From Cordylochernes scorpioides (taxonomy: Eukaryota; Arthropoda; Arachnida; Pseudoscorpiones; Chernetidae), in assembly GCA_030710605.1 (NCBI GenBank), contig CP092880.1, forward strand, positions 10,052,562-10,116,561: 64,000 nt of DNA, read 5' to 3'. Under the pieces are notes generated by a model. The model saw only the letters and a list, made by a program, of their open reading frames with translations, had not been told where the DNA came from and ran no database searches. A program made the translations under genes and the position numbers. Positions 1-55,851 of the stretch are shown one piece after another (within the stretch, counting starts at the first letter, position 1; every line of letters starts with the position of its first letter).

Positions 1-170
1 AAATATTGGTAAAATAAATGATATTTTGATCCAATATATGCCTTTTTAATTAAATATTACCATTATATATGTGATTAGCTTTAAAAATTATAATAATTAC
101 AATGCTTTTTTTTTTAATTACTAGTATTATTACTGTTTTTTTTTTCTGCATGTACCCCTATATTACTGCT

Positions 171-222
171 CGGAGAATCTGTATAAGACTAAAAAAGTCT
201 TAATAAAGTTTTTGTTGTTTTT
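171..222 (+). repeat. Retroposon 3' tail with hairpin and AATAAA
   Basis: An agaatctgtat motif precedes a short stem (AGACT/AGTCT), then taataaag, T-run and TTG repeats. The same architecture with different stem sequences occurs at 5,505, 62,781 (+) and at 7,008, 24,790, 26,617, 62,280 and 63,127 (-). The matching copy in block B is near 36,742-36,795. I read it as the conserved 3' end of SINE/LINE families. Confidence 0.7.
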
Positions 223-339
223 TGTAAATTTTTATATATTCGAAAAATTAATTAATTATAAAGTAATACTTAAAGCCTCCCCGCATAAGTTTCTTTTTTT
301 GTGAAAATCAATATTAATTTCAAAGAGAAATATGTACTA

Positions 340-535
340 TTTCTAACTTTTTGGATGACGTATGAAAAGGTTGAATATATGAAGAGTAATGGTCTATATA
401 TGATTGGATGACGTATGAAAGGGTGAAAATGTGAAGAGTAATGGCGAACGGAAAAGTAAAAGTGTCCAGGGGCGGGAATCGAACCCACAACCTTCTGCTT
501 ACCGGGCAGGTGCCATGTCCACTAGGCTAATTAAT
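340..535 (-). mobile_element. tRNA-derived SINE-like repeat
   Basis: On the minus strand an A-box-like segment (AGCCTAGTGG) is followed about 40 nt later by a B box (GGTTCGATTCC). Then comes a non-tRNA body with two near-repeats of the 'ggatgacgtatgaaa' segment read from the plus strand. Copy B has it at about 36,910-37,106. A partial relative lies at 13,739-13,815 (copy B 50,059-50,135). It does not fold as a clean functional tRNA, so I call a SINE head. Confidence 0.6.
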
Positions 536-1423
536 TAATTATATATTTTTTAATAATTTATTTTAATGGGAGGATTCTTCACTGATGAGCGAGGTCTCCC
601 AACATTGTTATATAGCAGTAAACTGTTGTACATATATTAATTAATTGTTCCACAGAGTGTGTGTAAGCTCACAGGTAAATAGGCGCTAACCGAAACAGAA
701 AAAAATTCCTTTGTTCAATATTAGTTTCCCTTTTATATTTTGTTCTCTCTCTTTTAAATCAATAAATATAATGTTTAATTAATAATTATTGGTATCAGTT
801 TCATTAATAATTCTAAGCAAAGTCAACATAAACTCAGTAGGGGGTTGTTTTATTGAAAAAAAAAAATAGCGGATATCGTTTCATTCCTAATGTATTTAGT
901 TTTATATTTAAAAAAAAGCGTACCTGGGGAAATTTGAAAAAAAAAAATCAGATTTTCAAAATAGTTTCCTCCCCTCACTCTCTTCTAATCAATTTATTGC
1001 AAAAAAAAAAAAAAAAAGAAATGTAATTTTACAAATTCTTGTAGATTATATGGAAACAACTTTGTAATTGATCAAAATTAACCCCCAATCCTTTAAAATA
1101 TTTATAAAAAATATATATATTTTTTTTCTTTCGCAGATCCGGGTACACCTTTTTTAATATAAATAATTGTATTCAATATATGTGTGTGTGGATCGGGCTT
1201 TTATTTAGTTTTGTTTCCACGTTTTCTCAAGATTTGCAAGAAGCCAGTCATAAACGGTTGAGTATGCTTTCCAGCCATTTTTACTTCTAACGTTGAGCGT
1301 CCTCATAAAATTAAGGAATTCCATATTGTCAATAGAAAAACCGAGAAATTATTTTAAATAGAAATAAATAAAGAGGGAAATTTTGCCAGAAGGATATTGA
1401 TTTATAAAAGATAAAGGTCACTT

Positions 1424-7131: not shown

Positions 7132-7471
7132 TGTTACATCATGATTAATGGCGTATTTCTTATATTAGTTTTAATATATTTGAAATTTAAATTATATATT
7201 TATTTATTTTTATATAAAATATTCTATGATATTTATTTAAAACAGATTATTAATTTATCATCATTTGTATTTAGGTACACTGTGACTTCACTGCTCTCTT
7301 TGATGTGAGAAAATAAAGAAAGGATTCTGGTGGCTACTTAAAGAAGACTTATCTCGTTATTCCCTTTTATAAATTTGTAGGATGGTTGAAACACGCTCTG
7401 GTAAGATGCAAGACCCAGCACAGGAGAGAATCCAGGCTGAAGAGTCTGCCAAGCCGCAACCTGGTGCAACA
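7132..7471 (+). repeat. Gypsy 5' LTR
   Basis: Starts TGTTACATCATG and ends CTGGTGCAACA. TATA-like tatataaaat lies near 7,208 and a poly(A) signal AATAAA near 7,311. The gag start codon (7,382) lies inside it, so its last 90 bases are coding. Confidence 0.97.
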
Positions 7472-8530
7472 ATTGGTAGAGATGCTAGTTCCGACCCAGT
7501 TGTCCTGAATCCCAACATCGACATCCCCAAGTATGATGGAACGGAAGACCCTCGCCCATGGATTGAATCTCTTGAAGAAATTGGCTTCTTGTACCATTGG
7601 GCAGACTACATTATCTCTCGTTATGCCGCCATGAACATGACGGGAAGCGCTAAAACCTGGTTGAATTTACACAAAGCTAGTTTCACGAGCTGGGAAAATA
7701 TTAAAATCCGCCTCATTCAGGATTTTTCTTATGACGCGAATAAAGAAGAACTTAGAATGAAGCTCAACAGAATGCAACACTGGAATGAACCAGCAATCAG
7801 GTTCGCGGAAGACATTCTAGTGTTGTGCAACAAGGTTGACCCCGCAATGGAAGAAGAAACAAAAATTGAACATGTTATTGGAGGACTGAAAAAAGAGTAC
7901 TCATTCGCGCTCTACCTGAACCCTCCTAAAACGACCGATGACCTTCTTGTCGTGTGCAAGAAAATGGATTATTTTGAAAAGAAGTATCGGGAACGTGTGG
8001 AGAAATCCAGAAACCTATATAACGGTCCACGCTATTCTAGACCCCAACAACAATCGAGGTACGTGCCGCCGACTGCCGCACGAAACTACCAGACCACTTC
8101 CAGGCCCCAAGCCCCTGTTTCCAATAATTACAAGAACGACTCCCCTCCTACCCCCAGACAGTATCGAAACAACTTTCCCCAGCCCTCTACCCCTAGACGT
8201 CCTTATAATCCTAACTTTGTGCCGAAACCAAACCTTCAGAGAAACACTTACAATAAAAGCCAAGAAGTGAGCAAAAATAGGACGGAAGATGGAAGACCAA
8301 TCTGCTTTAAATGTAACAAGCCAGGGCACGTGGCCCGTTATTGTAGGGTCAAGTTTATAAGAATCCTAGAAGAGGATCCAGCAGATACCCAAGAGAAGGT
8401 CGAAGAAAAATGCCAAATGAATGAAATATCAGAGAAATCAGGACCTCGGCTTTATGCTGATGTATGTCATAGCACACAGACAAATATTCCTACCCGGAAT
8501 AGATATTCCGTGTTGGAAGATTTAAACTAA
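7382..8530 (+). CDS. gag: Gypsy Gag
   Basis: A 382-residue Gag polyprotein that would form the retrotransposon particle and bind its RNA. Residues 1-30 (starting MVETRSG) are encoded by the LTR, and the frame then runs straight through the primer-binding site. A capsid-like alpha-helical region follows (about 50-210) with the YDG and TW motifs typical of arthropod gypsy Gags. A basic, proline- and asparagine-rich stretch (about 215-300) leads to one CCHC zinc knuckle (C308-C321, CFKCNKPGHVARYC). The stop TAA at 8,528 directly follows a TTTAAAC heptamer, so a fraction of ribosomes should shift by -1 into protease. I chose the ATG in the LTR because the same codons occur in a related solo LTR at 16,962 and no better start follows. 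Confidence 0.93.
   Translation: MVETRSGKMQDPAQERIQAEESAKPQPGATIGRDASSDPVVLNPNIDIPKYDGTEDPRPWIESLEEIGFLYHWADYIISRYAAMNMTGSAKTWLNLHKASFTSWENIKIRLIQDFSYDANKEELRMKLNRMQHWNEPAIRFAEDILVLCNKVDPAMEEETKIEHVIGGLKKEYSFALYLNPPKTTDDLLVVCKKMDYFEKKYRERVEKSRNLYNGPRYSRPQQQSRYVPPTAARNYQTTSRPQAPVSNNYKNDSPPTPRQYRNNFPQPSTPRRPYNPNFVPKPNLQRNTYNKSQEVSKNRTEDGRPICFKCNKPGHVARYCRVKFIRILEEDPADTQEKVEEKCQMNEISEKSGPRLYADVCHSTQTNIPTRNRYSVLEDLN
7474..7491 (+). other. Putative primer-binding site
   Basis: TGGTAGAGATGC begins two bases after the LTR. It would pair with a tRNA 3' end terminating in CCA. I cannot name the tRNA. The site lies within the gag reading frame. Confidence 0.5.
8521..8527 (+). promoter_or_regulatory. 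-1 ribosomal frameshift site TTTAAAC
   Basis: The heptamer sits in the correct phase (T TTA AAC in the gag frame), immediately before the gag stop. The -1 frame is open from here into protease. TTTAAAC fits the X XXY YYZ rule. I did not identify a clear downstream pseudoknot. Confidence 0.75.
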
Positions 8531-8766
8531 GCGTCGCGCCTGAATCTGTCAATCAAAGCAAGTCGACCATAAACGGAATCAAGAAGTTGGACCCTAAATA
8601 CAAATTAAAAATTAATGTGGACAAGATAGGGACTTTTGAAGCTTTGGTTGATACAGGTGCTGACCTCTCAGTGGTCGACCTCAGAACGGCCCTCGATACA
8701 GGCCATGGTATAAGTAAACTCGCAAAAATTTGTGCAGGACCCGATGGAAAAAATTGGACATGGTAG
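8527..8766 (+). CDS. pol: Gypsy protease (frame -1 to gag, broken end)
   Basis: This aspartic protease segment would cleave the Gag-Pol polyprotein. It has no start codon of its own and should be reached by the -1 shift at TTTAAAC. The active-site triad context ALVDTGADLSVVD is visible, with the catalytic Asp codon at 8,650-8,652. The frame then reaches a stop at 8,764, while the homologous continuation (ILGRDF flap-end motif) lies in the next frame. The switch point is the six-A run at 8,748-8,753, one base short of frame continuity. This may be a sequencing length error or a real lesion. Confidence 0.85.
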   Translation, partial: LSVAPESVNQSKSTINGIKKLDPKYKLKINVDKIGTFEALVDTGADLSVVDLRTALDTGHGISKLAKICAGPDGKNWTW

Positions 8767-10880
8767 GAAGTATATTTTTAAATATAAAAATTGATAACGA
8801 AACATTATCACACAACTTTGTGATATTGAAAACGCATTTACGGACATTAATTCTTGGGAGAGATTTCCTTAAGAAAATGAACGCAAAAATAGATTGTAAG
8901 CAAGAAACTATAAAATATGATTTGACGAATAATCATGACGAAATCAATTTTGAAATGTTGAAAATAAAGAGTGCCAAGGATTCCATTGTACCGGAATGTT
9001 CCATGAAATTGATCAAGGCATTGGTAGAAACAGAGGATGGAGAATATATTATCGAGGAGAGCAGCAAAATGTTTCAAACAAATGGACTTCGTCTAGCAAG
9101 AAGCTTGATCAATGTTATAAATAGGGAAACACACATCTGGATAACTAATCCGTATCCTCGACCGTTAAAAATAATGAAAAACCAAACATTGGCTTTTGGA
9201 AGTAGTCCAGCGAAAATAAATGTGAGTCGAGAAAGAGAGGTAGAAAAGAACGAAGAACCTAGATTCCAAATAAACGAAAATCTTTCACCAAAGGAACAGA
9301 AGGAGTTAAAACAAGTTTTAGAAAGGTATGGAGATCTTTTTTCATCGAGATTAGGGAGAACCAATTTGGCAAAACATCGGATAGACACAGAAGACGCGAA
9401 GCCAATTAAACACAAGCCTTACCGGGTAAGTGCTAAAGAACGAGATATTATAAAAGAGCAAATTGACGAGATGCTTACAGAAGGCATAATTAGGCCATCT
9501 TCTAGCCCCTGGTCTTTTCCAGTAATATTGGTCAAGAAGCGAGATGGTAAATACAGATTTTGTGTGGACTACAGAAAACTGAATAATGTGACAGTAAAAG
9601 ATGTCTATCCGATCCCTAGAATAGACGAAGTTATGGATACTCTCCAAGGATCTACACACTTCTCAGCAATAGACCTCAGATCTGGATATTGGCAAGTTGA
9701 AGTCGAAGAAAGAGACAAAGAGAAAACAGCTTTCACTACAGCGCATGGATTATATGAATTCAACGTGATGCCTTTTGGACTTTGTAACGCGCCTGCTACC
9801 TTTGAGAGAAATATGGAGAATATGCTTGGAAATCTGAGATGGCAAATTTGTTTGTGTTATCTGGATGATGTTATCATATATAGCCCGGATTTTCCAACGC
9901 ACCTCAAAAGACTTGAAGCTGTTTTTAGATGTTTTCGTGAATCTAATTTAAGGTTAAACGACAAAAAATCCCGATTTGCTTTTGAAGAATTGGAGATTCT
10001 CGGCTATATAACGAGCAAACATGGTATAAAACCCGCGGAACATAACATCAAAGCTGTCAGAAATTTCCCTCGGCCCAAAAAGGTCAAAGAAGTACAATCC
10101 TTTTTGGGAATGTGTTCATATTATAGAAAATTTATCAAAGACTTCTCAAAAATTGCTGACCCTTTGACCAACCTTATAAAAAAAAGTGTATCATTTACCT
10201 GGACAGAAAGACAAGAGGAAGCGTTTCAAACCCTAAAAACAGCACTATTAAGTCCACCAATTTTAGGTCACTTCAATCCAAATGCACCTACTTATGTTCA
10301 TACTGATGCGTCCAACATCGGCATAGGTGCAACACTTGTCCAAGACATCGGTGGTGAAGAGAAGGTGATCTCATATTTGAGTCGTACCCTAAGTAAAGCG
10401 GAGCAAAATTATTCAACCACTGAAAAAGAATGTCTGGCCGTTGTCTGGTCAATGTCAAAATTACGACCCTACCTTTATGGAAGACACTTTAAAATAGTAA
10501 CAGACCATCACGCCTTATGCTGGCTCAAAAACTTGAAGGATCCAACAGGTCGATTGGCAAGATGGGCATTGAAAATTCAAGAATATGACTTCGATATAAT
10601 ACATAAATCGGGAAAGAAGCATCTGGACGCTGATGGCTTATCTAGGGGGCCCTTACCAGAAACTGATTGGGATGAGGATTTTGAAAGGCTATTTTTAAAT
10701 CAAATAACAGACGAAGAGGATAAATTTATCGAAAGTGTTAAGAAAAACCTTAATGAAAGCAGGCGATCAATTGCGCAAAACTTTAAAGAAGAAGATGGAT
10801 GCCTCTTTAAAAAAACCCGAACCCTGAAGGCAGGGCGTGGTTGCTTGTGGTTCCAGAGAATAAAAAGAGAGAAATTATGA
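8730..10880 (+). CDS. pol: Gypsy reverse transcriptase-RNase H
   Basis: The open frame gives 716 residues; the first codons overlap protease and the nominal ATG is not a true start. The protease C-terminal motif ILGRDF is at residues 41-46. Reverse transcriptase spans about 215-425: the fingers motif RFCVDYRKLN (276-285), catalytic Asp in SAIDLRSGYWQ (D315) and YLDD (377-380). The connection follows, then RNase H (about 515-640) with HTDAS (D526), TEKECLAV (E566), TDHHAL (D592) and DADGLSR. All catalytic residues are present. After about residue 694 the frame is wrong, because homology moves to another frame at the seven-A run 10,809-10,815. Function is copying element RNA into DNA and degrading the template. 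Confidence 0.95.
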   Translation: MCRTRWKKLDMVGSIFLNIKIDNETLSHNFVILKTHLRTLILGRDFLKKMNAKIDCKQETIKYDLTNNHDEINFEMLKIKSAKDSIVPECSMKLIKALVETEDGEYIIEESSKMFQTNGLRLARSLINVINRETHIWITNPYPRPLKIMKNQTLAFGSSPAKINVSREREVEKNEEPRFQINENLSPKEQKELKQVLERYGDLFSSRLGRTNLAKHRIDTEDAKPIKHKPYRVSAKERDIIKEQIDEMLTEGIIRPSSSPWSFPVILVKKRDGKYRFCVDYRKLNNVTVKDVYPIPRIDEVMDTLQGSTHFSAIDLRSGYWQVEVEERDKEKTAFTTAHGLYEFNVMPFGLCNAPATFERNMENMLGNLRWQICLCYLDDVIIYSPDFPTHLKRLEAVFRCFRESNLRLNDKKSRFAFEELEILGYITSKHGIKPAEHNIKAVRNFPRPKKVKEVQSFLGMCSYYRKFIKDFSKIADPLTNLIKKSVSFTWTERQEEAFQTLKTALLSPPILGHFNPNAPTYVHTDASNIGIGATLVQDIGGEEKVISYLSRTLSKAEQNYSTTEKECLAVVWSMSKLRPYLYGRHFKIVTDHHALCWLKNLKDPTGRLARWALKIQEYDFDIIHKSGKKHLDADGLSRGPLPETDWDEDFERLFLNQITDEEDKFIESVKKNLNESRRSIAQNFKEEDGCLFKKTRTLKAGRGCLWFQRIKREKL

Positions 10881-11992
10881 AAGAATATCACAATCATATG
10901 TCGAATGGCCATCTGGGCGTCGCCAGAACCATGTACCGAATAAAGAGTAAATACTTTTGGCCATCCATGCTAAAGGATGTCTCAGAATTCGTTAAGACGT
11001 GTCACCTTTGCCAAAGTAGGAAAGGCTCAAACCAATTACCTTCTGGACTACTACAGCCCATCCCCCCAGCCAACTTTCTTTTCGAAAGAATTGGAATTGA
11101 CTTTGTTGGTCCACTACCATCTACGAAAAACAGGAAAAAATGGATAATCGTGCTGACGGACTACTACACTAGATATGCAGAAACAAGAGCAGTCTCGGAA
11201 GCAACAGTGAAAGAAGTTTCTAAATTTCTAGTAGAGGATATTTTTCTTCGGCACGGAGCCCCACAATATCTTATTAGTGACAGAGGCTCTCAATTTACCA
11301 GTAATTTAATGAAAGAGGTGATGAAAACGTGCAAGATTAAACATTGCTTCACAACGAGCTATCATCCCCAGACTAATGGATTGACAGAGCGGTTAAATAG
11401 AACATTGATCAATATGCTCAGTATGTATGTGAACACTGATCAGAAAAATTGGGACGAAATACTCCCATTCATCACTCACGCTTACAATACTACCATTCAG
11501 GAAACCACAGGATATTCTCCCTTTTTCCTGATGTTTGGAAGAGAACCCACGTCTCTTTTGGACGACAGGAATATCTCGGTGGACATTGACAAAGATGATT
11601 ATGATGAATACATAAAACATCACTTAGACAAAATAAACAGAACAAGAAAATTAGTTATTAACAACACAATAAAGACTCAAGAAAGAATGAAAAAGAACTA
11701 TGACAAGAAACACATGGAAAGAAGCTACGAACCAGGAGAATTAGTAGCAGTTTGGACACCAATTAGGAAAATAGGAAAGTGTGAGAAACTACTGAGAAAA
11801 TATTTTGGCCCATATAGAATATTAAAGAAGCTGTCCAACGTAAATTACTTAATTGAACCAAAAGATAATCCTGGCCAAGACCCATTGATTGTCCATGTCT
11901 CAAGAATCAAACCCTATTTTGAAAGAATTGATGAGGTCAATCACGAGGACGTGACGACCTCTGGAGAGGGGGAAGTGTTACATCATGATTAA
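10841..11992 (+). CDS. pol: Gypsy integrase
   Basis: Integrase portion of Pol, 383 residues from the nominal ATG; real coding starts upstream across the 10,809 frame break. It would insert the cDNA into host DNA. The N-terminal HHCC zinc domain is at about 17-57 (ending CHLCQ). The catalytic core has D87 (GIDFVGPLP), D147 (ISDRGSQF) and E183 (TERLNRTL), with 35 residues between the last two (DD35E). A C-terminal GPY/F-type module is visible at YFGPYRILKK (321-330). The final codons lie in the 3' LTR, so the stop at 11,990 is LTR-encoded. No damage inside this frame. Confidence 0.95.
   Translation: MLVVPENKKREIMKEYHNHMSNGHLGVARTMYRIKSKYFWPSMLKDVSEFVKTCHLCQSRKGSNQLPSGLLQPIPPANFLFERIGIDFVGPLPSTKNRKKWIIVLTDYYTRYAETRAVSEATVKEVSKFLVEDIFLRHGAPQYLISDRGSQFTSNLMKEVMKTCKIKHCFTTSYHPQTNGLTERLNRTLINMLSMYVNTDQKNWDEILPFITHAYNTTIQETTGYSPFFLMFGREPTSLLDDRNISVDIDKDDYDEYIKHHLDKINRTRKLVINNTIKTQERMKKNYDKKHMERSYEPGELVAVWTPIRKIGKCEKLLRKYFGPYRILKKLSNVNYLIEPKDNPGQDPLIVHVSRIKPYFERIDEVNHEDVTTSGEGEVLHHD
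11963..11975 (+). other. Gypsy polypurine tract
   Basis: GGAGAGGGGGAAG abuts the 3' LTR start at 11,976. It is the expected primer site for plus-strand synthesis, and it is also coding for the integrase C-terminus. Confidence 0.85.
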
Positions 11993-12315
11993 TGGCGTAT
12001 TTCTTATATTAGTTTTAATATATTTGAAATTTAAATTATATATTTATTTATTTTTATATAAAATATTCTATGATATTTATTTAAAACAGATTATTAATTT
12101 ATCATCATTTGTATTTAGGTACACTGTGACTTCACTGCTCTCTTTGATGTGAGAAAATAAAGAAAGGATTCTGGTGGCTACTTAAAGAAGACTTATCTCG
12201 TTATTCCCTTTTATAAATTTGTAGGATGGTTGAAACACGCTCTGGTAAGATGCAAGACCCAGCACAGGAGAGAATCCAGGCTGAAGAGTCTGCCAAGCCG
12301 CAACCTGGTGCAACA
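11976..12315 (+). repeat. Gypsy 3' LTR
   Basis: 340 bp, identical by eye to the 5' LTR. It ends GGTGCAACA and is followed by the second copy of the ATAT target duplication at 12,316. Confidence 0.97.
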
Positions 12316-35720: not shown

Positions 35721-35724
35721 AAAT

Positions 35725-35795
35725 GCATCGGCCGGGGAATCGAACCCGGGCCGCCCGAGTGGCAGGCGAGCATTCTACCACTGAACCATCGATGC
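35725..35795 (-). tRNA. tRNA-Gly (GCC), slightly irregular
   Basis: The minus strand reads as the standard glycine tRNA: GCATCGATGGTTCAGTGGTA start, anticodon loop CTGCCAC (anticodon GCC), GGTTCGATTCC B box and a matching acceptor end. A T-run terminator follows directly. Irregularities against the canonical form are one extra C after the T loop, one acceptor mismatch (position 7) and one anticodon-stem mismatch. It may be a functional gene with a homopolymer length error or a mildly decayed copy. Confidence 0.8.
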
Positions 35796-36092: not shown

Positions 36093-37143
36093 TCGGTGAA
36101 CGGGTTTCTTAGATATATCTATATATAAGTAGAGTAATACAATATAAATAAAGTAAATAATCATAAATAGGATTGTGTGTGTTATATACGGCTAAAACCA
36201 GGTGTTCCCCCCACTTAATCCTCATGAGCTTATCAAACTCGACATCGGTATGACTCCGCGTGATCCACTTTTATAACTTCTTTTGGAATATTTAAAATTC
36301 TTTTATTCGAAGTTTCTTTCCTCCAATTTACCCAGCTTTTATTAACTTGATTGTCTTAATTAAGTTTTCCTGTATATAAATTTCATATTACCATTAATTT
36401 GAAAATAAAGCAATCCATAAATAAATCTTTAATTAAAAAGGCATATATTGTGGAATCCAAAAATCATATATTTTACCAAAATTTCATTTGGTTGAACGCC
36501 AACCTTTATCAAAGTATTATAACATATTAATGTGTTTTAATACCTTGATAAAGGTTGGTGTCAGCCAACTGAAATATTGGTAAAATAAATGATATTTTGA
36601 TCCAATATATGCCTTTTTAATTAAATATTACCATTATATATGTGATTAGCTTTAAAAATTATAATAATTACAATGCTTTTTTTTTAATTACTAGTATTAT
36701 TACTGTTTTTTTTTTCTGCATGTACCCCCCTACATTACTGCTCGGAGAATCTGTATAAGACTAAAAAAGTCTTAATAAAGTTTTTGTTGTTTCTGTAAAT
36801 TTTTATATATTCGAAAAATTAATTAATTATAAAGTAATACTTAAAGCCTCCCCGCATAAGTTTCTTTTTTTGTGAAAATCAATATTAATTTCAAAGAGAA
36901 ATATGTACTATTTCTAACTTTTTGGATGACGTATGAAAAGGTTGAATATATGAAGAGTAATGGTGTATATATGATTGGATGACGTATGAAAGGGTGAAAT
37001 GTGAAGAGTAATGGCGAACGGAAAAGTAAAAGTGTCCAGGGGCGGGAATCGAACCCACAACCTTCTGCTTACCGGGCAGGTGCCATGTCCACTAGGCTAA
37101 TTAATTAATTATATATTTTTTAATAATTTATTTTAATGGGAGG

Positions 37144-37473
37144 TGAATCGAATTGGCTTTGGCCTCCTGACACTAAGGAGGAATCACCGCCTAATTCTTA
37201 TTTTAACGCTGGTTTTAATTCTATGCTTCCTGGACTCAGCGAGCTAACTCATTCAAACTTGAATAACTGCTATTGTCTCGTCTCACTAACTCTAATGACT
37301 CAACCACGTATACATTAATAACTCTTGTCTCACCAACTCTAATGACTCAACCACGTATACTTAATAACTATAACTGTCTTTATTTTCTAAAATCAAGATT
37401 ATATACATTTCTAAAATTTACATAATTTAACAAAAGTAAATTCTAACAATTTTGCATATTTAAGGCTGGAACA
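37144..37473 (-). repeat. BEL 3' LTR
   Basis: 330 bp, differing from the 5' LTR by three substitutions and one single-base indel. Contains the same 46-bp tandem repeat (about 37,280-37,370). Confidence 0.95.
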
Positions 37474-39316
37474 TACTCCCCCCGGCCGCTGAACCCTGGT
37501 TCAGATTTGAAGGGAAGCGGAGCCAACTTCGTAATAGGTCGTAGGTAGACTCCGGTAGCAGCCCGAACTTGGGCAACTCGCACCTTCTGGTCTTGAAGAA
37601 CGACAAATACTTCTCTGCAGTCTCGTGTTCTTTATCAGCTGGTCCCAATATGAACACCAGGTCCAAAGCTACAGCAGTGTATTGACTATCTCTGTATTTG
37701 ACATAGGTTGGTAGTTCAGTCCATTGTTTAGACTTCAGGTTCAACTTCCATAAATATTTCGACTCCTTCCCAGCGTGAACAAATACAGCTCTTACCCAAT
37801 CCTGCACAATAGTAAAGTGATTGATATTTTTTGGATAGCCCTCTTTCTCACCAAGAATCGGAATAGTTGTATAACACCCCCAGGAATCTGTTTGAAGTCG
37901 GTAGTTATACAGATTACAGAAGTGTTGTTCCCACTGCATTCGAGGGAATAGTAAAAGTTTCTTGTTGGTATAGCAAATCTGAAGAGAGAGAAATTTCTCT
38001 TTCCAAAATATTTTGTCTGATCCACTCAGATGCCAATCTTTGTTTAGGAGATGATAGGAGAAAACCTTGTAAGTAGAGTGGTCGCGGGTCTCTGCAAGCA
38101 TAAACAAGAACGCCGATGGTGCAAATGTCGTTGCCAGGACCAAGAGGTCAGTTAGGGGCGACTTCCTGCTTTTCACTAGAACAGAAGCCCGACCCTCTTT
38201 AAGTTTCACTCGGACAATATTGTCGGTGCAAGTTACCTTATTCCCTCTAGAGTGTATTCTCCCTCCTACAAAGTACACCCTTTTATCGTGAGAGGCATAA
38301 ACGATAGACTTGGAAATAACTATTGGAGCGAAACCATTCACTTTTCTCCAGATCCATTTTTTGTGAGGGATGTGGTATTGGTACAATACCGAGCGGACAT
38401 TCGGGCCATCTAGAGATTCCACATCTTCTATGAGGAGGTAAAGATAAGTTCCGTCGCCGACAAAGACCTTCGGGTAGCTACATTGGATGGCTTTGGTAAC
38501 TTCTGGCCACTCTCCATTTTCCTTCAATATGGCGCGGTGGTAGACTGGTAGCCCTTCTAAATCCTCGACTTCTTTGACCGCGGTCTGCCTCTGGAGATTC
38601 GCCATTGCCACTGTAGTAGGTGAGAGGAAACCAAGTGGATCGAAAATCCTCGCAATATTGGAGAGAAGATCTCCTTTGGTAACAACTTCCTCAGGAAGAG
38701 TTATATTAACTCTAAACGTATCTTGTACATGATCCCATACAATTCCTAAAATCTTGGATATGGCTCCTTTCTCCAAGTTAATTTTCCTCTCTTCGTTTAT
38801 TTCCTCGACATGAGACACTATCTCGTGGCAATTTGAATTCCACTTTCTTAAGTGAAACCCTCCCTTTTTCATTAAGTCTTTTAATTGGTCTATTAGTTCT
38901 TTGGTTTCAGCAATCGTTTGAGCTCCTGTTAACAGATCATCGACATAGAAATCATTCAAGGTCACCCTAGAAGCCTCAGGATAATTATGGCCTTCATCTT
39001 CTGCTAACTGTTGTAATGTTCTCATTGCCAAAAATGGAGCCGAAGTTGTACCATAGGTAACAGTCAGCAGTCGATAGTCCACCACAGGCTCTTCTGGCGA
39101 TGGTCTCCACAATATCCTCTGATAGTCCGCATCTTCTGGATGAATTCTTATCTGGCGGTACATCTTTTCTATATCAGCAGTTATGGCGACAGGATACGTT
39201 CTGAATCTGAGGAGAATGAAAAATACATCCTGTTGTATTTTTGGTCCCTTGTGCAAAAATTGATTTAAAGAAACATAATTTTCAGATTTAGCTGATGCAT
39301 CAAACACAACTCTCAT
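37460..39316 (-). CDS. pol: BEL/Pao reverse transcriptase fused to a kelch-type beta-propeller
   Basis: Single open frame of 618 residues. Residues 1-240 are BEL reverse transcriptase: RVVFDASA (2-9), catalytic Asp in ITADIEKMYRQI (D48), YVDD (124-127), LGIVWD (190-195) and DPLGFLSP (226-233). RNase H and integrase should follow but are absent. Instead residues about 283-580 show six units of about 50 residues with kelch features: an aromatic/hydrophobic strand, GG or equivalent, then a Tyr-x-hydrophobic strand ending with Trp (HKKWIWR, NKDWHLSG, TDSWGCY, SKQWTELP; one clear VYFVGG at 347-351). The last 20 residues run through the polypurine tract into the LTR. The ATG is nominal, since translation would come from upstream. 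Kelch propellers bind protein partners, often as substrate receptors for Cul3 ligases. No BTB or BACK domain is visible here. The frame is undamaged over 1.85 kb, unlike the parts upstream. Confidence 0.88.
   Translation of the reverse strand: MRVVFDASAKSENYVSLNQFLHKGPKIQQDVFFILLRFRTYPVAITADIEKMYRQIRIHPEDADYQRILWRPSPEEPVVDYRLLTVTYGTTSAPFLAMRTLQQLAEDEGHNYPEASRVTLNDFYVDDLLTGAQTIAETKELIDQLKDLMKKGGFHLRKWNSNCHEIVSHVEEINEERKINLEKGAISKILGIVWDHVQDTFRVNITLPEEVVTKGDLLSNIARIFDPLGFLSPTTVAMANLQRQTAVKEVEDLEGLPVYHRAILKENGEWPEVTKAIQCSYPKVFVGDGTYLYLLIEDVESLDGPNVRSVLYQYHIPHKKWIWRKVNGFAPIVISKSIVYASHDKRVYFVGGRIHSRGNKVTCTDNIVRVKLKEGRASVLVKSRKSPLTDLLVLATTFAPSAFLFMLAETRDHSTYKVFSYHLLNKDWHLSGSDKIFWKEKFLSLQICYTNKKLLLFPRMQWEQHFCNLYNYRLQTDSWGCYTTIPILGEKEGYPKNINHFTIVQDWVRAVFVHAGKESKYLWKLNLKSKQWTELPTYVKYRDSQYTAVALDLVFILGPADKEHETAEKYLSFFKTRRCELPKFGLLPESTYDLLRSWLRFPSNLNQGSAAGGSMFQP
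37474..37488 (-). other. BEL polypurine tract
   Basis: CGGCCGGGGGGAGTA on the minus strand, directly before the 3' LTR at 37,473. It is also within the fused reading frame. Confidence 0.75.
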
Positions 39317-39470
39317 TTTTGTTGTAGTGGATTTGCTCTCTAATTACTGGATGATGAGGCATGTAATAGCATCTGCACAATTCTCGCTTCACTTCTGCAA
39401 TTGGGGACCCTTTCCATGTGGTTTAAGTGTTCATATTCCTTCATGAATCCCCGGTATTGGTCATATAATT

Positions 39471-40199
39471 TCACATTCTTACACAATTTTCCTTCCAACG
39501 AAAGAACCTTCTTAAAGCTTTTTCTCTTGATTCACCCAGAAGCGGTCGATGTTGTCTGAATGGCAATTTTACCCAATACCTTCCATGGCTATCTCTGCCA
39601 TGGTTATTCGAAAATAACCTTTCACAATCTTCGTCCTGTGTACAAAGATCCGGTGACGGCACAGATTCAATTTCCCAGAATCTTTTCATTACGAATTCTA
39701 GTTCTGGTTCAGATTGTAAACTCAGGTTACAGACTTCTGTATTACTCTCCGATGTTCCCATGAGTTTTCCTAGAAGTACCCAACCTAGTCTTGTATTAAT
39801 AGCCATTGGCAATCCTTCTCCGAGAGATATAGAGCCATTCAACATAAGTTCAGTGTATATATCTGCTCCCAATATCATATCTATTGGGGCTTGTATGTAG
39901 AACTCTGGGTCCGCCAATTTGAGGTTCTTCAAAGTTGGCCAATTAGGGTCTTTTAACCTGAAGTTCGGAATTTCTGAAGTGAGCACTCCCGTGACTACTG
40001 CCTCTACCGAGAATTCCTCAGAATTATTCAGTGGACAAAATGTCACACTTACTGTCGATGAAGAATGCTGCACTGGTGTGTTTCCAACCCCTATAATCAT
40101 CCGATCTGATTTCCTTTGACAAGTCCCAATCTTTCGCAGCATCCTTTTGTTATCATGGTGACTTGGGAACCGCTGTCCAGTAGGGCTCTGCAGGTGCAT
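39471..40199 (-). CDS. pol: BEL/Pao protease C-terminus and DUF1758-like linker
   Basis: 242 residues; true homology starts about residue 31, where the preceding frame stops. It contains the protease end ILGADIYTELM and RLGWVLLGKLMG, then the linker leading to reverse transcriptase (RYWVKLPFRQ, GESREKALRRFF), all typical BEL order. After WKEN the frame is lost at an A-run near 39,485-39,488. Between 39,300 and 39,490 two further small length changes (a C-run near 39,410 and an AG-type run near 39,330) move the frame before reverse transcriptase resumes. I see no stop codons caused by substitution in the correct phase. Confidence 0.85.
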   Translation of the reverse strand: MHLQSPTGQRFPSHHDNKRMLRKIGTCQRKSDRMIIGVGNTPVQHSSSTVSVTFCPLNNSEEFSVEAVVTGVLTSEIPNFRLKDPNWPTLKNLKLADPEFYIQAPIDMILGADIYTELMLNGSISLGEGLPMAINTRLGWVLLGKLMGTSESNTEVCNLSLQSEPELEFVMKRFWEIESVPSPDLCTQDEDCERLFSNNHGRDSHGRYWVKLPFRQHRPLLGESREKALRRFFRWKENCVRM

Positions 40200-40525
40200 A
40201 ACTTTCCGAGTCCATTTTTTATCTTGATTCTAGCCGTTGCGAGTAGTACGTGGCTATCATTGCAGTTTGCCTGTTGAGTATTAGTTAAATTGATAGCACT
40301 TTCATGTTCCTTCGGAGTTGTGTTCTCAACTTGGGCCGAAGCGCCTTCCGTGCTCGGTTTATCATAATGAATCATTGTGTGGTGCTTCCCCTTGCATACT
40401 TTGCATCGTTGGTTCAGCCTACAATTCCATGAGAAATGGCCTTTCCTCAAGCAATTGAAGCACAATTTATGACCTTTTACTACATTTAATTTTCTTTTAA
40501 AGGCATTTTGCAAAATAAGCTGCAC
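40097..40525 (-). CDS. pol: BEL/Pao zinc knuckle and protease segment
   Basis: Open frame of 142 residues that continues Gag in another frame; its ATG is not a true start. Residues 22-35 form a CCHC knuckle (CFNCLRKGHFSWNC), then a second Cys-rich motif (CKVCKGKHHTMIH). The retropepsin active site is LLDSGSQVTMIT near residue 115-126. This is the normal BEL order. The frame ends soon after, where homology moves to the next frame at an A-run near 40,106-40,109. In an intact element this would be a continuous part of Gag-Pol and would process the polyprotein. Confidence 0.9.
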   Translation of the reverse strand: MQLILQNAFKRKLNVVKGHKLCFNCLRKGHFSWNCRLNQRCKVCKGKHHTMIHYDKPSTEGASAQVENTTPKEHESAINLTNTQQANCNDSHVLLATARIKIKNGLGKLCTCRALLDSGSQVTMITKGCCERLGLVKGNQIG

Positions 40526-41562
40526 ATGTATAGTGGATGATGCTTAGATTTGCATAATATGCAAGTGTCCGATTTCTCAATTAGCATCCCGTAGCTTTGG
40601 CATTTGGGAAATCTCGATCCGGTGGTTTCTTCCCTTTTTGAACATTCCTTGACAGCACAAGACATGCTTCTCGCATGTCTGGAAATGAACGCTATGAACT
40701 TGTCATAAGAAGGAAGAGTGTTGTCCACTGACAGTTCCCAATCCAACCTTAGATTTTCACTCAACTTCTGCTGGAGGAAGTGCACCAAGATCACATCCAC
40801 TAATTGATTTCTCTTCAATTCCAGCGTTTCTAAGTTTCTTATGGCTTCATTACAAACATCCATGAATTCATGGAGACACTTAGCCGATGGATTCTTAATT
40901 GCCCGGAGAGAAAAGATTTTTGACACCTGGGCATAAGCTAGCTCTCTCGGGTTATCATATCTTGATAACAGTGTACTCCATGCTTGGCCATAATTTTCAC
41001 TTAGTAAAGGGAAACCCCTTATTAATCTGGCCGCTTCGCCTTTTACTGCTGAATTCAAATATTGTAACTTCTGTATATTAGTTAACCCTGGATGTGCATC
41101 GATGGTGGTGAGGAATAGCTCTTTGAAGTTGATCCAATTGCCCATATCTCCATCATATATCGGTAAGTCAAATTGAGGCAATTTTATATTTGCCTGAGAG
41201 CCATTTGGCTTTATGTCCGCCAGTTTGTCTTTGAGTTTTCTTTCATTTTCTATTTTTACCCTCAAGCTTCCAATCTTGTTCATTGAACTATCACATGCCT
41301 CACTTTCTTTATCTATATCAACTTCATCCAAAGAAAACAGCTCGTCGTAGAGTTTCTCAATTTTTTCTTTGATCTCCTTTAATTCTTCACCCATTATTTC
41401 TAAGCGTATTGTTTCACCTGCCTCAATAATTGAATCCACACTTTCAATAAATCCATCAATTCTCCTTTTCTGGTAACTTAACTTTCTTTGGAGGATCCTT
41501 TCGTCTCGAGACATTTGCAATTGTATTCTCGCTGAGTTTTTGCTAAATTTCTTCTGTTTCAA
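40486..41562 (-). CDS. gag: BEL/Pao Gag (N-terminal part)
   Basis: 358 residues of structural polyprotein. An N-terminal charged, probably coiled-coil region (about 20-125) is followed by the block LPQFDLPIYDGDMGNWINF, and by LQYLNSAVKGEAARLIRGFP, which are hallmarks of the DUF1759-type Gag of BEL/Pao elements. The C-terminus begins a Cys/His segment (CILCKSKHHPLYMC). The frame then ends about 20 codons short of the zinc knuckle, which continues in the next frame at a short A-run near 40,492-40,500. The start codon lies shortly after the primer site and is the first in-frame ATG. Function is particle assembly. Apart from the terminal frame break the region is clean. Confidence 0.92.
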   Translation of the reverse strand: MKQKKFSKNSARIQLQMSRDERILQRKLSYQKRRIDGFIESVDSIIEAGETIRLEIMGEELKEIKEKIEKLYDELFSLDEVDIDKESEACDSSMNKIGSLRVKIENERKLKDKLADIKPNGSQANIKLPQFDLPIYDGDMGNWINFKELFLTTIDAHPGLTNIQKLQYLNSAVKGEAARLIRGFPLLSENYGQAWSTLLSRYDNPRELAYAQVSKIFSLRAIKNPSAKCLHEFMDVCNEAIRNLETLELKRNQLVDVILVHFLQQKLSENLRLDWELSVDNTLPSYDKFIAFISRHARSMSCAVKECSKREETTGSRFPKCQSYGMLIEKSDTCILCKSKHHPLYMCSLFCKMPLKEN

Positions 41563-41570
41563 ATCCTAAT

Positions 41571-41588
41571 CAGGCTCTTGAGGGACCA
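41571..41588 (-). other. BEL primer-binding site
   Basis: TGGTCCCTCAAGAGCC directly abuts the 5' LTR with no gap, as expected for a tRNA with CCA end. The tRNA is not identified. Confidence 0.7.
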
Positions 41589-41917
41589 TGATTCGAACTG
41601 GCTTTGGCCTCCTGACACTAAGGAGGAATCACCGCCTAATTCTTATTTTAACGCTGGTTTTAATTCTATGCTTCCTGACTCAGCGAGCTAACTCATTCAA
41701 ACTTGAATAACTGCTATTGTCTCGTCTCACTAACTCTAATGACTCAACCACGTATATATTAATAACTCTTGTCTCACCAACTCTAATGACTCAACCACGT
41801 ATACTTAATAACTATAACTGTCTTTATTTTCTAAAATCAAGATTATATACATTTCTAAAATTTACATAATTTAACAAAAGTAAATTCTAACAATTTTGCA
41901 TATTTAAGGCTGGAACA
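41589..41917 (-). repeat. BEL 5' LTR
   Basis: On the minus strand it begins TGTTCCAGCCTTAAATATGC and ends CAGTTCGAATCA. It contains a 46-bp tandem repeat ('tctaatgactcaaccacgta' twice on the plus strand). Confidence 0.95.
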
Positions 41918-41995
41918 GGAGGATTCTTCACTGATGAGCCAGGTCTCCTAACATTGTTATATAGCAGTAAACTGTTGTATATATATTAATTAATT

Positions 41996-52070: not shown

Positions 52071-53668
52071 TAGATATGAAATTATGGAAGAATAGAAAAT
52101 ATTTTAAAAATCCGTTTGTTCAGTTATTCTGTATGTGAAGGCCAACAAGCTTGTACAATGACCATATCACCACGCTGATGAGGGCCAACAGTCCAATATC
52201 CTCTCCCGAAATACCTCTCCCTTCATCCTACGTTTTTTTTTCGTAGATCGCGAAATGCGTGGTATCGCTGAAGACCCGTTGGCGATCTTCCATCAAACTC
52301 TGCAGCGGTGGCTGAGGCGGCATGTACATATTCATTGTACATAGTATATATTTTATTGTGTTTTTTTTTTAAATTTTCATTCTTTTTTAAAATTATTATT
52401 ATAATAATCATCATCATTTTAAATTTTTCATATCTACTTGAATAGTGCAGACTGTGTACTTTTGTCTATATTTTGACGGAATGTCAATACAACTATGTTA
52501 TTTGTCTCTCTTCATCCTTCAAGAAGTATCTACCAGTTTGTCCATGGACGATCTTCTGATGATCGTTGGAGTGTCTTTTCTGCAAATTTCTATTTCCTAT
52601 TGATTCCTTCATTTATAATTTTATATATTGTAGTGTTTCGTTCTGAGTCTTGTTATAGTTTTTGTAATTCTTTTCTCACAGTTTATTTCGTATATATGAT
52701 CTTTTCTTATTTTTTGTTGAATTATCCTGTATTTTGCCAAAGCCTCAGCGTTAAATACTACTGACATTTGTTCTTTCATTTTTTAAATATTTTTCTATTC
52801 TTCCATAATTTCATATCTATTTAAGTACCTTCGAATAAAGAAATCCCCTCTGAATAGCAATGGTTGATAGACCTGGAATAGAGTGAATGGTTTTCCATGA
52901 TGGGTGACTTCCATATTGGAGATGGCTGTTCTACATGGTAAATTTACATTTCGGATATTTAATCTTCTCCAAACTTCTATTAGTCTATATCTTCGTTCAA
53001 TCTTGAAGCTTGTTCTTTCATACTAAATGTAAAATGAGTAGATCCTCTCCTCCAGTTCTATGGCCATTGTGATCTCCTCCACGCGTACGTGGTTCACTTT
53101 TCTTGATTTATCAACAAATTGGGTTTGCCAAATATCACGGAACAAGTTAAATCTACGTTTAGTTGATTTTTGTTCCACTAGATGGCGCTCTACCATCTAA
53201 AATTCTCGTGTGAGCGGTCAGGATATGCTTTTTCTGTTTTGAATATTAACTCGTGATATTTTTCTTTTTCTCTTTTTTTTTTTTTTTTACATATTGTTGC
53301 ACCAAGTTGCAGCTTTGCAGGGTCGTCGACCTTGATTTCTTCCTTCTTGGTGTTATACACGTTTCCCGAGCGGGTTTCCATATTCAACGCAAATAAATAA
53401 AAGTAAATAAATAAAATTAAATAAAAATAAATTACCTTTTAAAGTTATTGTGTTTATTTATTCTTGTCTTTCTCGTAGGTTGCGATCCGCAGTCTTCGTC
53501 TAGGTCCTCTCCCGCTCCATTTATTTATTTATTTCATCTCAATTTACAGGTGTTACATTCGAGCACAGCTCACGAGTCACCTTGTCCAGATTATTTACAC
53601 ATGGCGAGTTGTAATGCTGGAGTGGCCCCCCGAACCTTACAGGAGGGCAGTTGTTGGGTGTTTGGCTG

Positions 53669-53797
53669 TCAGCTAGCCATTGGGTCCAGGTCGTCGGATT
53701 CGGTGGCTGAGGTCACCAACTGTAGGAATTCTTCTTTTTTGAGTTTGATTCCGTTGCAATTCCAGAAAACGATTTTTAAAGGTAATTTGCCTTTCAT
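53669..53797 (-). pseudogene. Jockey-type ORF2 remnant
   Basis: 43 codons starting at the ATG that overlaps the ORF1 stop. Residues 7-20 (LKIVFWNCNGIKLK) match the first strand of the APE-type endonuclease, with its catalytic Asn. After about residue 28 the sequence is unrelated and stops. Nearly all endonuclease and all reverse transcriptase are deleted. Confidence 0.8.
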
Positions 53798-54981
53798 TGT
53801 AAGAAAGTTTTGATAATTTCTAATAACTTTTCGCACAGTTCCCTGGTGTCAGAATGAGTAGTTTTCTTTTTTGCAGTTTCAGCGTAACTTGCCTTTTGTT
53901 TTTCAACAATTGCTTCTTCTGTTTTAGTGGAGCTTGCTTGAGGTATGGTGTTAGGGGAGTTTTGTCTAGGAGGCTTTAGCTGCTGTTGTTGTGGCTTCGG
54001 AAAATTTGGGCATCCGCGGTAATTGGCTGTGTGCGCCTCTCCGCAGTTAGCGCACTTTGGTGGGAGCTGTTTCGACTTTCTTGGACAATCCTTCGAATGG
54101 TGTTCTTCAGCACACTTGACGCATTTGGGCTTCAAAAAGCAGTTTAGCTGGCCATGCCCAAAACCCTGGCAGTTAAAGCATTGGGTGACTCGTTTTGTAG
54201 TCCTGAATGATTCCACGACTATTTTTTGGTAAAGTATTTCGGTTATTCCATAGATTCGTTTATTTTGTTCATTTTTCGGTAGCTCTACTAGGACTATATT
54301 CATCGGTATTTTGGTCGATTGTCTATGGAGTCTTTTGACAATGACCTCAGTGAAGCCCATTGAGATCAGTTCAATTACGACGTCTTCTTCTTTGAAGGCT
54401 GTTGATACCCCCTTCAATACCACTTTCAGTGGTTTTTCCTCCTGTAGTCTGTAAGAATATCCTCCATTATTTTTCTGTACATACTCCCTGATTTTTTTGA
54501 AGTCGCAGATGTTTTTCGATTTAATTATGTGCTTTTTGCCAGAAATCGTGACTTGGAATGGTTCCATGCACAAGTCTTTTAGCTCTTGGCAAAGAAGCTT
54601 CCAATCTGCTACATTTTCTGCAATAACAGGAGGAATTCTCGGTTTTTTCACGTTAGTGACTGTGGTCCATGGGCCATCGTTGTCGCTATTTTCTTCATCG
54701 TCTTGCGGTGGGTGAGCTGCGTTCATTTGTTGAGAAACTCCAGTGGCGGGACTTTGTTCGTCGATGTCCATTCTAGGCGTCTTCAGATTACGCTCGCTCC
54801 TAGTTGGCGATGTTGAGTCATCCGATTGGGAGCCGCGAATTCTCTTCTTTGATTGAACCGTTTCCTCAAGTTTATACTCGATTCCACATTTGTCTAGGAT
54901 CTTCGTTATTAAGGAGGCTTCGATTATGCATAGTTTCTCGCCGGTTGGTCCGATCGTCGATTTAATTACAATCGGTGGCAT
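53794..54981 (-). CDS. Jockey-type ORF1 (Gag-like RNA-binding protein)
   Basis: A complete 395-residue ORF1. The N-terminal 100 residues are low-complexity and charged. A central alpha/beta region (about 120-265) fits the PRE_C2HC-type domain of Jockey/X-element ORF1 proteins (KPLKVVLKGV, VIELISMGF, IPMNIVLVELP). Three zinc knuckles follow: C268-C281 (CFNCQGFGHGQLNC), C287-C299 (CVKCAEEHHSKDC) and C310-C324 (CANCGEAHTANYRGC). The C-terminus is Gln/Lys-rich. In this family ORF1 coats element RNA and escorts it to the nucleus. The stop TGA overlaps the ORF2 start in ATGA. The start is the first ATG after the short 5' UTR. No stop or frameshift is seen. Confidence 0.93.
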   Translation of the reverse strand: MPPIVIKSTIGPTGEKLCIIEASLITKILDKCGIEYKLEETVQSKKRIRGSQSDDSTSPTRSERNLKTPRMDIDEQSPATGVSQQMNAAHPPQDDEENSDNDGPWTTVTNVKKPRIPPVIAENVADWKLLCQELKDLCMEPFQVTISGKKHIIKSKNICDFKKIREYVQKNNGGYSYRLQEEKPLKVVLKGVSTAFKEEDVVIELISMGFTEVIVKRLHRQSTKIPMNIVLVELPKNEQNKRIYGITEILYQKIVVESFRTTKRVTQCFNCQGFGHGQLNCFLKPKCVKCAEEHHSKDCPRKSKQLPPKCANCGEAHTANYRGCPNFPKPQQQQLKPPRQNSPNTIPQASSTKTEEAIVEKQKASYAETAKKKTTHSDTRELCEKLLEIIKTFLQ

Positions 54982-55851
54982 ATTATTTTTTGCCCCCTAA
55001 AATTCTATGCCAACTGGTATACCTCCCGCTCCAATAAGCAAGCAAGATATATGTACAATAAATATTAGAAAAGGAGTGAAACTATAAAAAGTAATGATGA
55101 TAATCTAAATATTCTGTTTTAAATAAATATTAAATATCATAGAATATTTTGAATAAATGTAAGGCGCATTAAAATTGATGTAACAATATGTAGGCGTGTG
55201 GTGCACTTAGAGTAAAAAAATAGTAGCTAACCCCCCCATGATTATCATAGCTTATTCCACCTGAGAGAGAATAGGAATATTAATAATTTTAAGCTAACAT
55301 ATCTCCCTCTTCAGCTCGAGAGAGAAAAAACAAAATTTTATTTTAAAGACAAGTTTAATAACTTTTGACCTGTTGAAGTACAAAGCTCGGAATCTAGGCG
55401 AGTTGCTATCCCATCATTTACCATCTAATTTATAGAGAAAAATTGCCCGGAGGATATTGATCTATATAAAATGAGAAAGGTCATCTCTCTCTCCCGTCAA
55501 AATACTGTAGATTCTAAAACTATACACCATCTAAGGACCCTCTCTACAAACTCTGGTCTCTTGGTGACAAAGCTTCAATACCAGATTTAACAAATTCAGA
55601 ACACCCACTTGTTTACCGTGATTTAGGCCTAATGGCTCTTTTCAGTCTAGGGCGGGCTTCGATTTCATGAAATCCACAAGGATTCATGAAATATTAAAAA
55701 TTTACCAAGGATGTGTTAGAATGGTAAAGTAGCAGGACCAATCCTATGACCGAACTGTAGATGTGACGGCAGGATATTTCCTTACCATATGGAAAATAAC
55801 CAATAAAATAGCCGAAGGAAAGAACATACGTCAGTATTTGACGCTGAGGCT

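Follow-up and report, generated by a model that had tools for sequence, protein, structure and literature searches.

We analysed a 64,000-nucleotide (nt) stretch of the genome of Cordylochernes scorpioides (GCA_030710605.1, contig CP092880.1, positions 10,052,562–10,116,561 of the forward strand), henceforth referred to as the window. On its minus strand, at 37,144–41,917, lies a BEL/Pao retrotransposon that carries a kelch-coding segment within its pol gene. Very probably, a BEL/Pao element took in 1,014 nt of a host kelch open reading frame (ORF) in place of the region between the end of the reverse transcriptase (RT) and a point about 40 codons short of the integrase end, by template switching, and the product was then mobilised in trans. 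The captured block (37,593–38,606) has BEL pol on both sides.

Structure of the window copy

The element is bounded by long terminal repeats (LTRs) that differ by 3 mismatches and 1 gap, and by the 5-bp target-site duplication (TSD) GGAGG on both sides. A second copy of the surrounding region is present in the window (1–573 aligns with 36,572–37,143) and contains the empty site. All three features had been reported in a first-pass annotation made from the letters of the window, and on their evidence its claim that the chimera itself transposed is right. The element and its sites are composed as follows.

37,139–37,143, no strand: left copy of the TSD GGAGG
37,144–37,473, minus strand: 3′ LTR, 330 nt
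37,474–37,484, minus strand: polypurine tract, read from the sequence
37,474–37,592, minus strand: remnant of the BEL Pol C-terminus (DUF5641 end), out of frame with the kelch frame, from PF18701 and DNA identity with relatives
37,593–38,606, minus strand: captured kelch segment, 1,014 nt, starting A+ATG, in frame with the RT, from comparison with relatives, kelch profiles and controls
38,607–39,343, minus strand: BEL RT with motif A (DIEKM) and YVDD, last letters DPLGFLSPTTVA
39,471–40,229, minus strand: protease-to-RT part of pol, frame-shifted relative to its neighbours in the window copy, with no Pfam match of its own
40,097–40,543, minus strand: zinc knuckles and start of the aspartyl protease (DSGSQVT), frame-shifted in the window copy (PF13650, E 0.0038)
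40,486–41,565, minus strand: gag (DUF1759; PF03564, E 8.1e-34)
41,573–41,588, minus strand: primer-binding-site-like sequence TGGTCCCTC..., directly after the 5′ LTR, read from the sequence
41,589–41,917, minus strand: 5′ LTR, 329 nt, aligned with the 3′ LTR
41,918–41,922, no strand: right copy of the TSD GGAGG
569–573, no strand: empty target site GGAGG in the other copy of the region

The first-pass annotation had also described one uninterrupted frame, giving no strand. We find it on the minus strand at 37,460–39,343, where it spans 627 codons from stop to stop and shows no frameshift through RT and kelch; the plus strand of the same stretch has many stops. Reading of the overlapping frames indicates that gag and protease of the window copy are broken by about five small shifts, from about 40,510 to 39,345.

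Identity of the BEL and kelch domains

Profile searches of the window frame returned RVT_1 (E 6.9e-6, below the curated cut-off) and Peptidase_A17 (E 1.2e-5, above the curated cut-off). Another copy, L052, matched DUF1759 (E 1.1e-33), Asp_protease_2 (E 1.4e-5), RVT_1 (E 8e-6, below the cut-off) and the start of Peptidase_A17. The BEL-type order of Gag, protease and RT is present in both the window copy and L052.

The predicted passage from RT to kelch was borne out by profile search. The kelch part of the window frame matched PF24681 (E 4.2e-6) and PF24981 (E 1.3e-4), both below the Pfam curated cut-offs, and the only match to a solved structure at E up to 10 was KLHDC10 (PDB 9d8p, E 7.1e-4). 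None of four controls (three shuffles and the reversed sequence) had any Pfam match at E up to 1, and none of 20,000 simulated sequences of kelch length was open. Because the profile scores fall below the Pfam cut-offs, we consider the kelch domain divergent. The Pfam profiles cover partial blades only, and the six units of roughly 50 residues counted in the first-pass annotation are not established by them.

Although KLHDC10 is the only solved match, it is very divergent from the captured domain, which does not qualify as its orthologue: a host exon (L070, C13:1.862 Mb) matches 9d8p at E 3.4e-15, as against 7.1e-4 for the captured kelch. A search for host kelch genes with the PF24681 profile gave 71 matches among the best 150 scored, and none of the 20 regions read was close to the captured kelch. 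No host source gene with introns and BTB/BACK domains, as the first-pass annotation had envisaged, was found, and no relatives were confirmed in IMG/VR and GTDB genomes.

Breakpoints and the replaced region

The 5′ breakpoint lies directly after ..CTACTACAGTGGC. All seven relatives compared as DNA match the chimeras up to this point and then diverge; the remaining 13 of the 20 loci without kelch show the same at the protein level, the only level at which they were compared (PTTVALKIIMQ vs PTTVAMANLQR). The 3′ breakpoint lies directly before GACCAGAAGG in 5/5 autonomous relatives, and the 119 nt from 37,592, the end of BEL Pol, are 98–100% identical to 5/5 autonomous relatives. The kelch segment had been described as running to the polypurine tract and LTR. 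Instead, the DNA returns at 37,592 to BEL pol in another frame, where the chimera matches positions 68–94 of the 94 of DUF5641 (PF18701, E 7.5e-4, 20.1 bits against a cut-off of 23.1) and a relative matches the full 1–94. Over its last 43 codons, the 627-codon frame runs through this integrase C-terminus out of register, and its stop falls within the LTR.

Peptidase_A17 is cut in the same way at the other border. In pieces of the chimera cut at or near the border the match covers positions 1–24 or 1–26 of 162; it reaches 1–38 when the frame is read on into kelch, and the relative's next stretch matches 26–162. Judged from the relatives, the lost region comprises Peptidase_A17 26–162 of 162 and the integrase zinc finger (L010), together with rve and most of DUF5641 (L059). 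No RNase H profile had a match even in the relative examined, so the loss of RNase H is placed by position. The earlier description of kelch in place of RNase H-integrase is correct as to where the cargo sits, and needs amending in that about 40 integrase C-terminal codons remain, out of frame. With these codons as all that is left of Pol after the RT, and with no RNase H-integrase, the chimera does not qualify as autonomous.

Copy number and state of the chimeras

We searched the C. scorpioides genome (2.62 Gb, 24 contigs, designated C1 etc.) for further copies carrying the same junction, a check that the first-pass annotation had proposed. At up to 3 mismatches, a 27-mer spanning the RT-kelch junction had 192 matches and a 27-mer from the kelch interior had 194, of which at least one (on C9) is not a chimera of the RT-kelch kind; reversed controls had none. 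In protein searches with kelch, the best 119 of 244 candidates were 98–100% identical over residues 1–336/337 and lay on all 24 contigs. Of these 119, 116 are without a stop, and 92 of the 116 lie in frames of at least 1,260 codons (66 at 1,260–1,310 codons and 26 longer). One chimera, at C7:83,162,035 and 83,162,275, carries two copies of the junction at a distance of 240 bp, the mark of a short internal duplication.

We read 21 copies, consisting of the window copy and 20 chimeras from among the 40 best DNA matches to the window kelch. Both junctions are present in 20/20 of the further copies, one of which (L053) has one extra base in the segment. Perfect and mutually different 5-bp TSDs flank 13 of the 14 copies with both ends visible. 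LTR pairs were compared in 19 of the 21 copies (L048 and L056 were left out, and in L040, L042 and L049 the stretch covered ends before the LTR pair is complete): 11 have zero mismatches (one gap in L050), four have 1–2, the window has 3, L041 and L058 have 6 and L040 has 9. A single frame of at least 1,260 codons, beginning in Gag and ending in kelch, is found in 15/21 copies.

The window copy has both motif A and YVDD. Motif A is kept in seven of the 21 copies and removed in the other 14 by a common in-frame deletion of 70 codons; in those 14 the RT catalytic residues are not intact, a second respect in which the chimeras fall short of autonomy. At the joint of this deletion (L039 and 13 other chimeras) the alignment ends overlap by 8 nt, and the deletion may too have arisen at a short repeat.

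The window copy is damaged and lies in a duplicated region of the assembly, as might be expected of an assembly chimera, or of a kelch insertion nested in a BEL element at this locus only. The identical junction in other genomic copies excludes assembly chimerism. Given the 192 matches genome-wide and the 20 further copies with both junctions, most with TSDs of their own, we attach practically no probability to either version. The chimera is genuine and was not created by the assembly.

Autonomous relatives and recombination

A search with the chimera RT gave 11,102 candidates, and the best 150 scored were 96–100% identical, many of them in frames of 1725–1737 codons. The 30 RT loci that we read comprise 10 chimeras (one being the window copy) and 20 loci without kelch. 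Autonomous relatives, whose RT is 96–98% identical to that of the chimeras, are abundant in the genome. Examples such as L010, L018 and L037 resemble the chimera in their LTRs, YVDD RT, polypurine tract and last 40 Pol codons. They differ in having a frame of 1725–1737 codons, and stretches of L010 and L059 contain a full Peptidase_A17, integrase zinc finger, rve and DUF5641 where the chimera has kelch. The proposal that integrase is supplied in trans is one that we share: we judge it necessary, and autonomous relatives are plentiful.

Among the 15 intact copies, the mean pairwise difference is 0.38% in kelch, 1.29% in gag-pro and 1.45% in RT (the 21 “parents” in this analysis, and in the substitution counts for these copies below, include one chimera, L025, with a changed start region). 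LTR length varies between 299 and 427 nt among chimeras; the LTRs are 75–95% identical to that of the window when gaps are counted, and are mostly near-identical within a copy. For three of the 21 copies (the window, L050 and L051), the LTR is nearer to one of five autonomous LTRs than to that of any other chimera when gaps are left out. Within kelch, all four gametes occur at 8 of 15 pairs of shared variable sites in 26 copies. All of these patterns would follow from one capture event and later exchange with relatives packaged in the same particles, although some sites may have mutated recurrently.

A donor-like locus on C8

A 60-residue kelch query gave 203 candidates, of which the best 150 were scored. 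One of these, at C8:23,006,307, sits in a frame of 378 codons although its identity is 100%. Because 53 of the 203 candidates are unscored, further non-chimeric kelch copies may exist. This donor-like locus (C8:23,006,126–23,007,139; L096, L098) has non-BEL sequence on both sides. It begins ..CCCGGGGT-AGTGGC-AATGGCGAATC.. and ends ..CGTTCTTCAA-GACCA-AGGATGGTG.., and AGTGGC (6 nt) and GACCA (5 nt) are common to it and to BEL exactly at the two breakpoints. Its flanks (90 nt left, 17 nt right) had no match to any BEL locus compared or to the window. A candidate donor with unrelated flanks is thus found outside the element.

The distance from start to end of the donor-like segment is 1,014 nt, the same as in the element, so that the locus has no net insertion or deletion and nothing in it points to an intron. 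Consequently, the first-pass annotation's proposal that a spliced host cDNA was captured finds no support. The first 105 kelch bases of the locus show 3 differences from the window copy. From the frame length and a stop 12 codons before the ATG, we infer that the 378-codon frame ends about 30 codons beyond the captured end, in which case the captured piece would stop before the frame's own stop. In the stretch from C8:23,006,096 onward (L096), a second open frame, MAARGARGSGNGESP..., overlaps the kelch frame at the start of the segment.

Patterns meant to catch an exact source with a deviating base beside the junctions (“not C”; “not G before C” on the 5′ side; “not G” on the 3′ side) gave 3, 0 and 0 matches, the 3 being mutated chimeras. 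Such patterns were blind to a source of this kind, because the donor-like locus has the same bases as BEL at these positions (microhomology).

Other candidate sources were rejected. At C9:7.091 Mb, the sequence before the kelch fragment is a local C9 repeat, kelch is absent from the 621 nt read of a sister copy (L095), and where C8 departs from the chimeras the fragment agrees with the chimeras, being identical over 363 nt to 12 of the 26 compared. Among the short-frame matches, C15:56.837 Mb is an ordinary chimera on reading, and C4:13.165 Mb and C1:181.687 Mb carry the RT-kelch junction.

The C9 region is unusual in itself. At C9:7,084,937–7,091,081 (L090, L088, L091), kelch nt 1–363 meet, head-on, the 3′ LTR end of a BEL element in inverted orientation, and the whole is bounded by a 17-bp direct repeat; it looks like an aberrant joint insertion. 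A local repeat cluster is located at C9:6.56–7.17 Mb, where 18 copies of ATTCTAAATTCTTGGGTTTGATAGCATG (up to 3 mismatches) are confined to 0.6 Mb.

How the segment may have been captured

Capture by microhomology-guided template switching fits the data, since the donor-like locus has non-BEL flanks and carries AGTGGC and GACCA at the breakpoints. A virus-like particle would have held a kelch transcript as well, and with minus-strand synthesis under way the RT would have left the BEL RNA for the kelch RNA at GACCA and switched back at AGTGGC. The resulting hybrid keeps the LTRs, primer site, polypurine tract and Gag-protease(-RT), joined in frame to kelch. As it has no RNase H-integrase and, in 14/21 copies, no RT motif A, it would spread on enzymes of its autonomous relatives, which would provide RNase H-integrase (and RT) in trans. 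Recombination with these relatives would keep exchanging its gag, RT and LTRs, and kelch, attached to the end of the Gag-Pol polyprotein, would most likely be carried along as a passenger.

Several points weigh against this reconstruction. Template switching and trans-mobilisation are inferences from the DNA sequence. The donor-like evidence covers 233 nt and extends only 17 nt beyond GACCA on the right. One of the 14 copies with both ends visible (L057) has no matching TSD, and the copies read, as the best matches to the window kelch, are biased towards young ones. Since the donor-like locus shows no intron, RNA-level capture is argued from the signatures of template switching and not from intron loss; for the same reason, microhomology-mediated insertion at the DNA level into a genomic BEL element keeps some probability. 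In this alternative, a genomic BEL element lost the 3′ half of pol, received kelch by microhomology-mediated repair, and was then transcribed and mobilised. Such repair also leaves short microhomologies like those at both junctions, a donor-like segment of exactly 1,014 nt demands no RNA intermediate, and at C9:7.085–7.091 Mb a kelch fragment and an inverted BEL element meet in a joint of the DNA type. However, a clean double replacement in one element would be needed, whereas two template switches achieve the same in one round, and the element demonstrably retrotransposes (TSDs) and recombines. We therefore regard a DNA-level origin as unlikely, though worth keeping in view, and favour template switching between RNAs.

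Is the kelch domain functional?

We also asked whether kelch is a working part under selection, for example as an adaptor fused to Gag-Pol that shields particles or recruits a host factor. Kelch is fused in frame and has no stop in nearly all scored copies, and frames of at least 1,260 codons are found in 12 of the 14 motif-A-deleted copies vs 3 of the 7 with full RT. On the other hand, its substitutions look neutral, with 27 nonsynonymous (N) to 7 synonymous (S) over 26 copies against an expected N/S of 2.85. This count leaves out 5 of 31 segments of other length (four longer by 1–2 nt, and L034, which is not a copy of kelch). For the 15 intact copies, kelch has 11N:5S unique and 3N:1S shared substitutions (expected 2.84), and gag-pro has 25N:16S unique and 14N:23S shared (expected 2.9). 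The test is limited by the youth of the copies and by small numbers; copies so young would be expected to have open frames anyway. Judged by length, moreover, the captured piece stops short of the end of the donor-like frame. As the substitutions give no sign of selection on kelch, we think it more likely to be a passenger than a functional domain and consider a working role improbable.

A more specific version is that kelch, at the end of a Gag-protease-kelch polyprotein, binds a host factor (e.g. a ubiquitin ligase partner or a restriction factor) and that the defective element thereby out-competes its helpers, which we put forward only as a speculation of low probability. If it held, the deletion of motif A in most copies read would mark a streamlined satellite with Gag-protease-kelch as its sole product.

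Comparison with known systems

Most known cases of host genes taken up by LTR retrotransposons are old and decayed. In the present case, a likely donor, the acceptor family, both breakpoints with microhomologies, helpers and about 190 descendants occur in one genome, and many of the descendants that we read are young. Steps such as the packaging of cellular RNA, template switching, helper dependence, recombination with helpers and a second deletion could be counted directly in such a system, in which a BEL element can multiply despite losing RNase H-integrase.

The maize element Bs1 has lost essential enzymes and is helper-dependent. In acutely transforming retroviruses, a host coding segment replaces viral sequence, the virus depends on a helper, and short homologies occur at the joints. 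The BEL chimera resembles these viruses in all three respects; unlike them, it has no env or extracellular stage known, and it multiplies in the germline and not by infection. Bs1 and retroviral oncogene transduction are events of the same kind as the capture of kelch by BEL.

Bs1 is likewise an LTR element with host gene segments fused to its own frame, but it belongs to a plant and holds pieces of three genes (PMC13317346), whereas the chimera is a BEL element with one kelch segment and about 190 copies. In the case of the chimera, moreover, helpers, acceptor and donor-like locus are identifiable in one genome. LTR retrotransposons of bdelloid rotifers also acquire extra coding sequences; these are ORFs added to gag and pol, some of them judged less likely to be host-derived (PMC5408684), whereas the chimera loses an essential half of Pol. 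A 2011 survey of BEL/Pao mentions env genes in a few elements, and a term search finds neither kelch nor host gene in it (PMC3118150); the accessible text on accessory domains of retrotransposons does not mention kelch (PMC6338049). No report of a BEL/Pao element with kelch cargo was found in the literature searched, with most subscription journals outside its coverage.

Other features of the window

Positions 1–24,398 and 36,572–62,277 are two copies of one region, about 92–99% identical in blocks and unlike in their transposon insertions; they represent either a tandem duplication or two unmerged haplotypes. An insertion at 7,132–12,275, present in copy A only, contains large frames resembling gag and pol (RT, integrase), and its 300-nt ends (7,132–7,431 and 11,976–12,275) are 100% identical; we take it to be a very young Ty3/gypsy-like element. 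At 53,520–55,022, copy B alone has a 400-codon frame with zinc knuckles, perhaps part of a non-LTR element. A tRNA-Gly gene or tRNA-derived repeat is located at 35,724–35,795.

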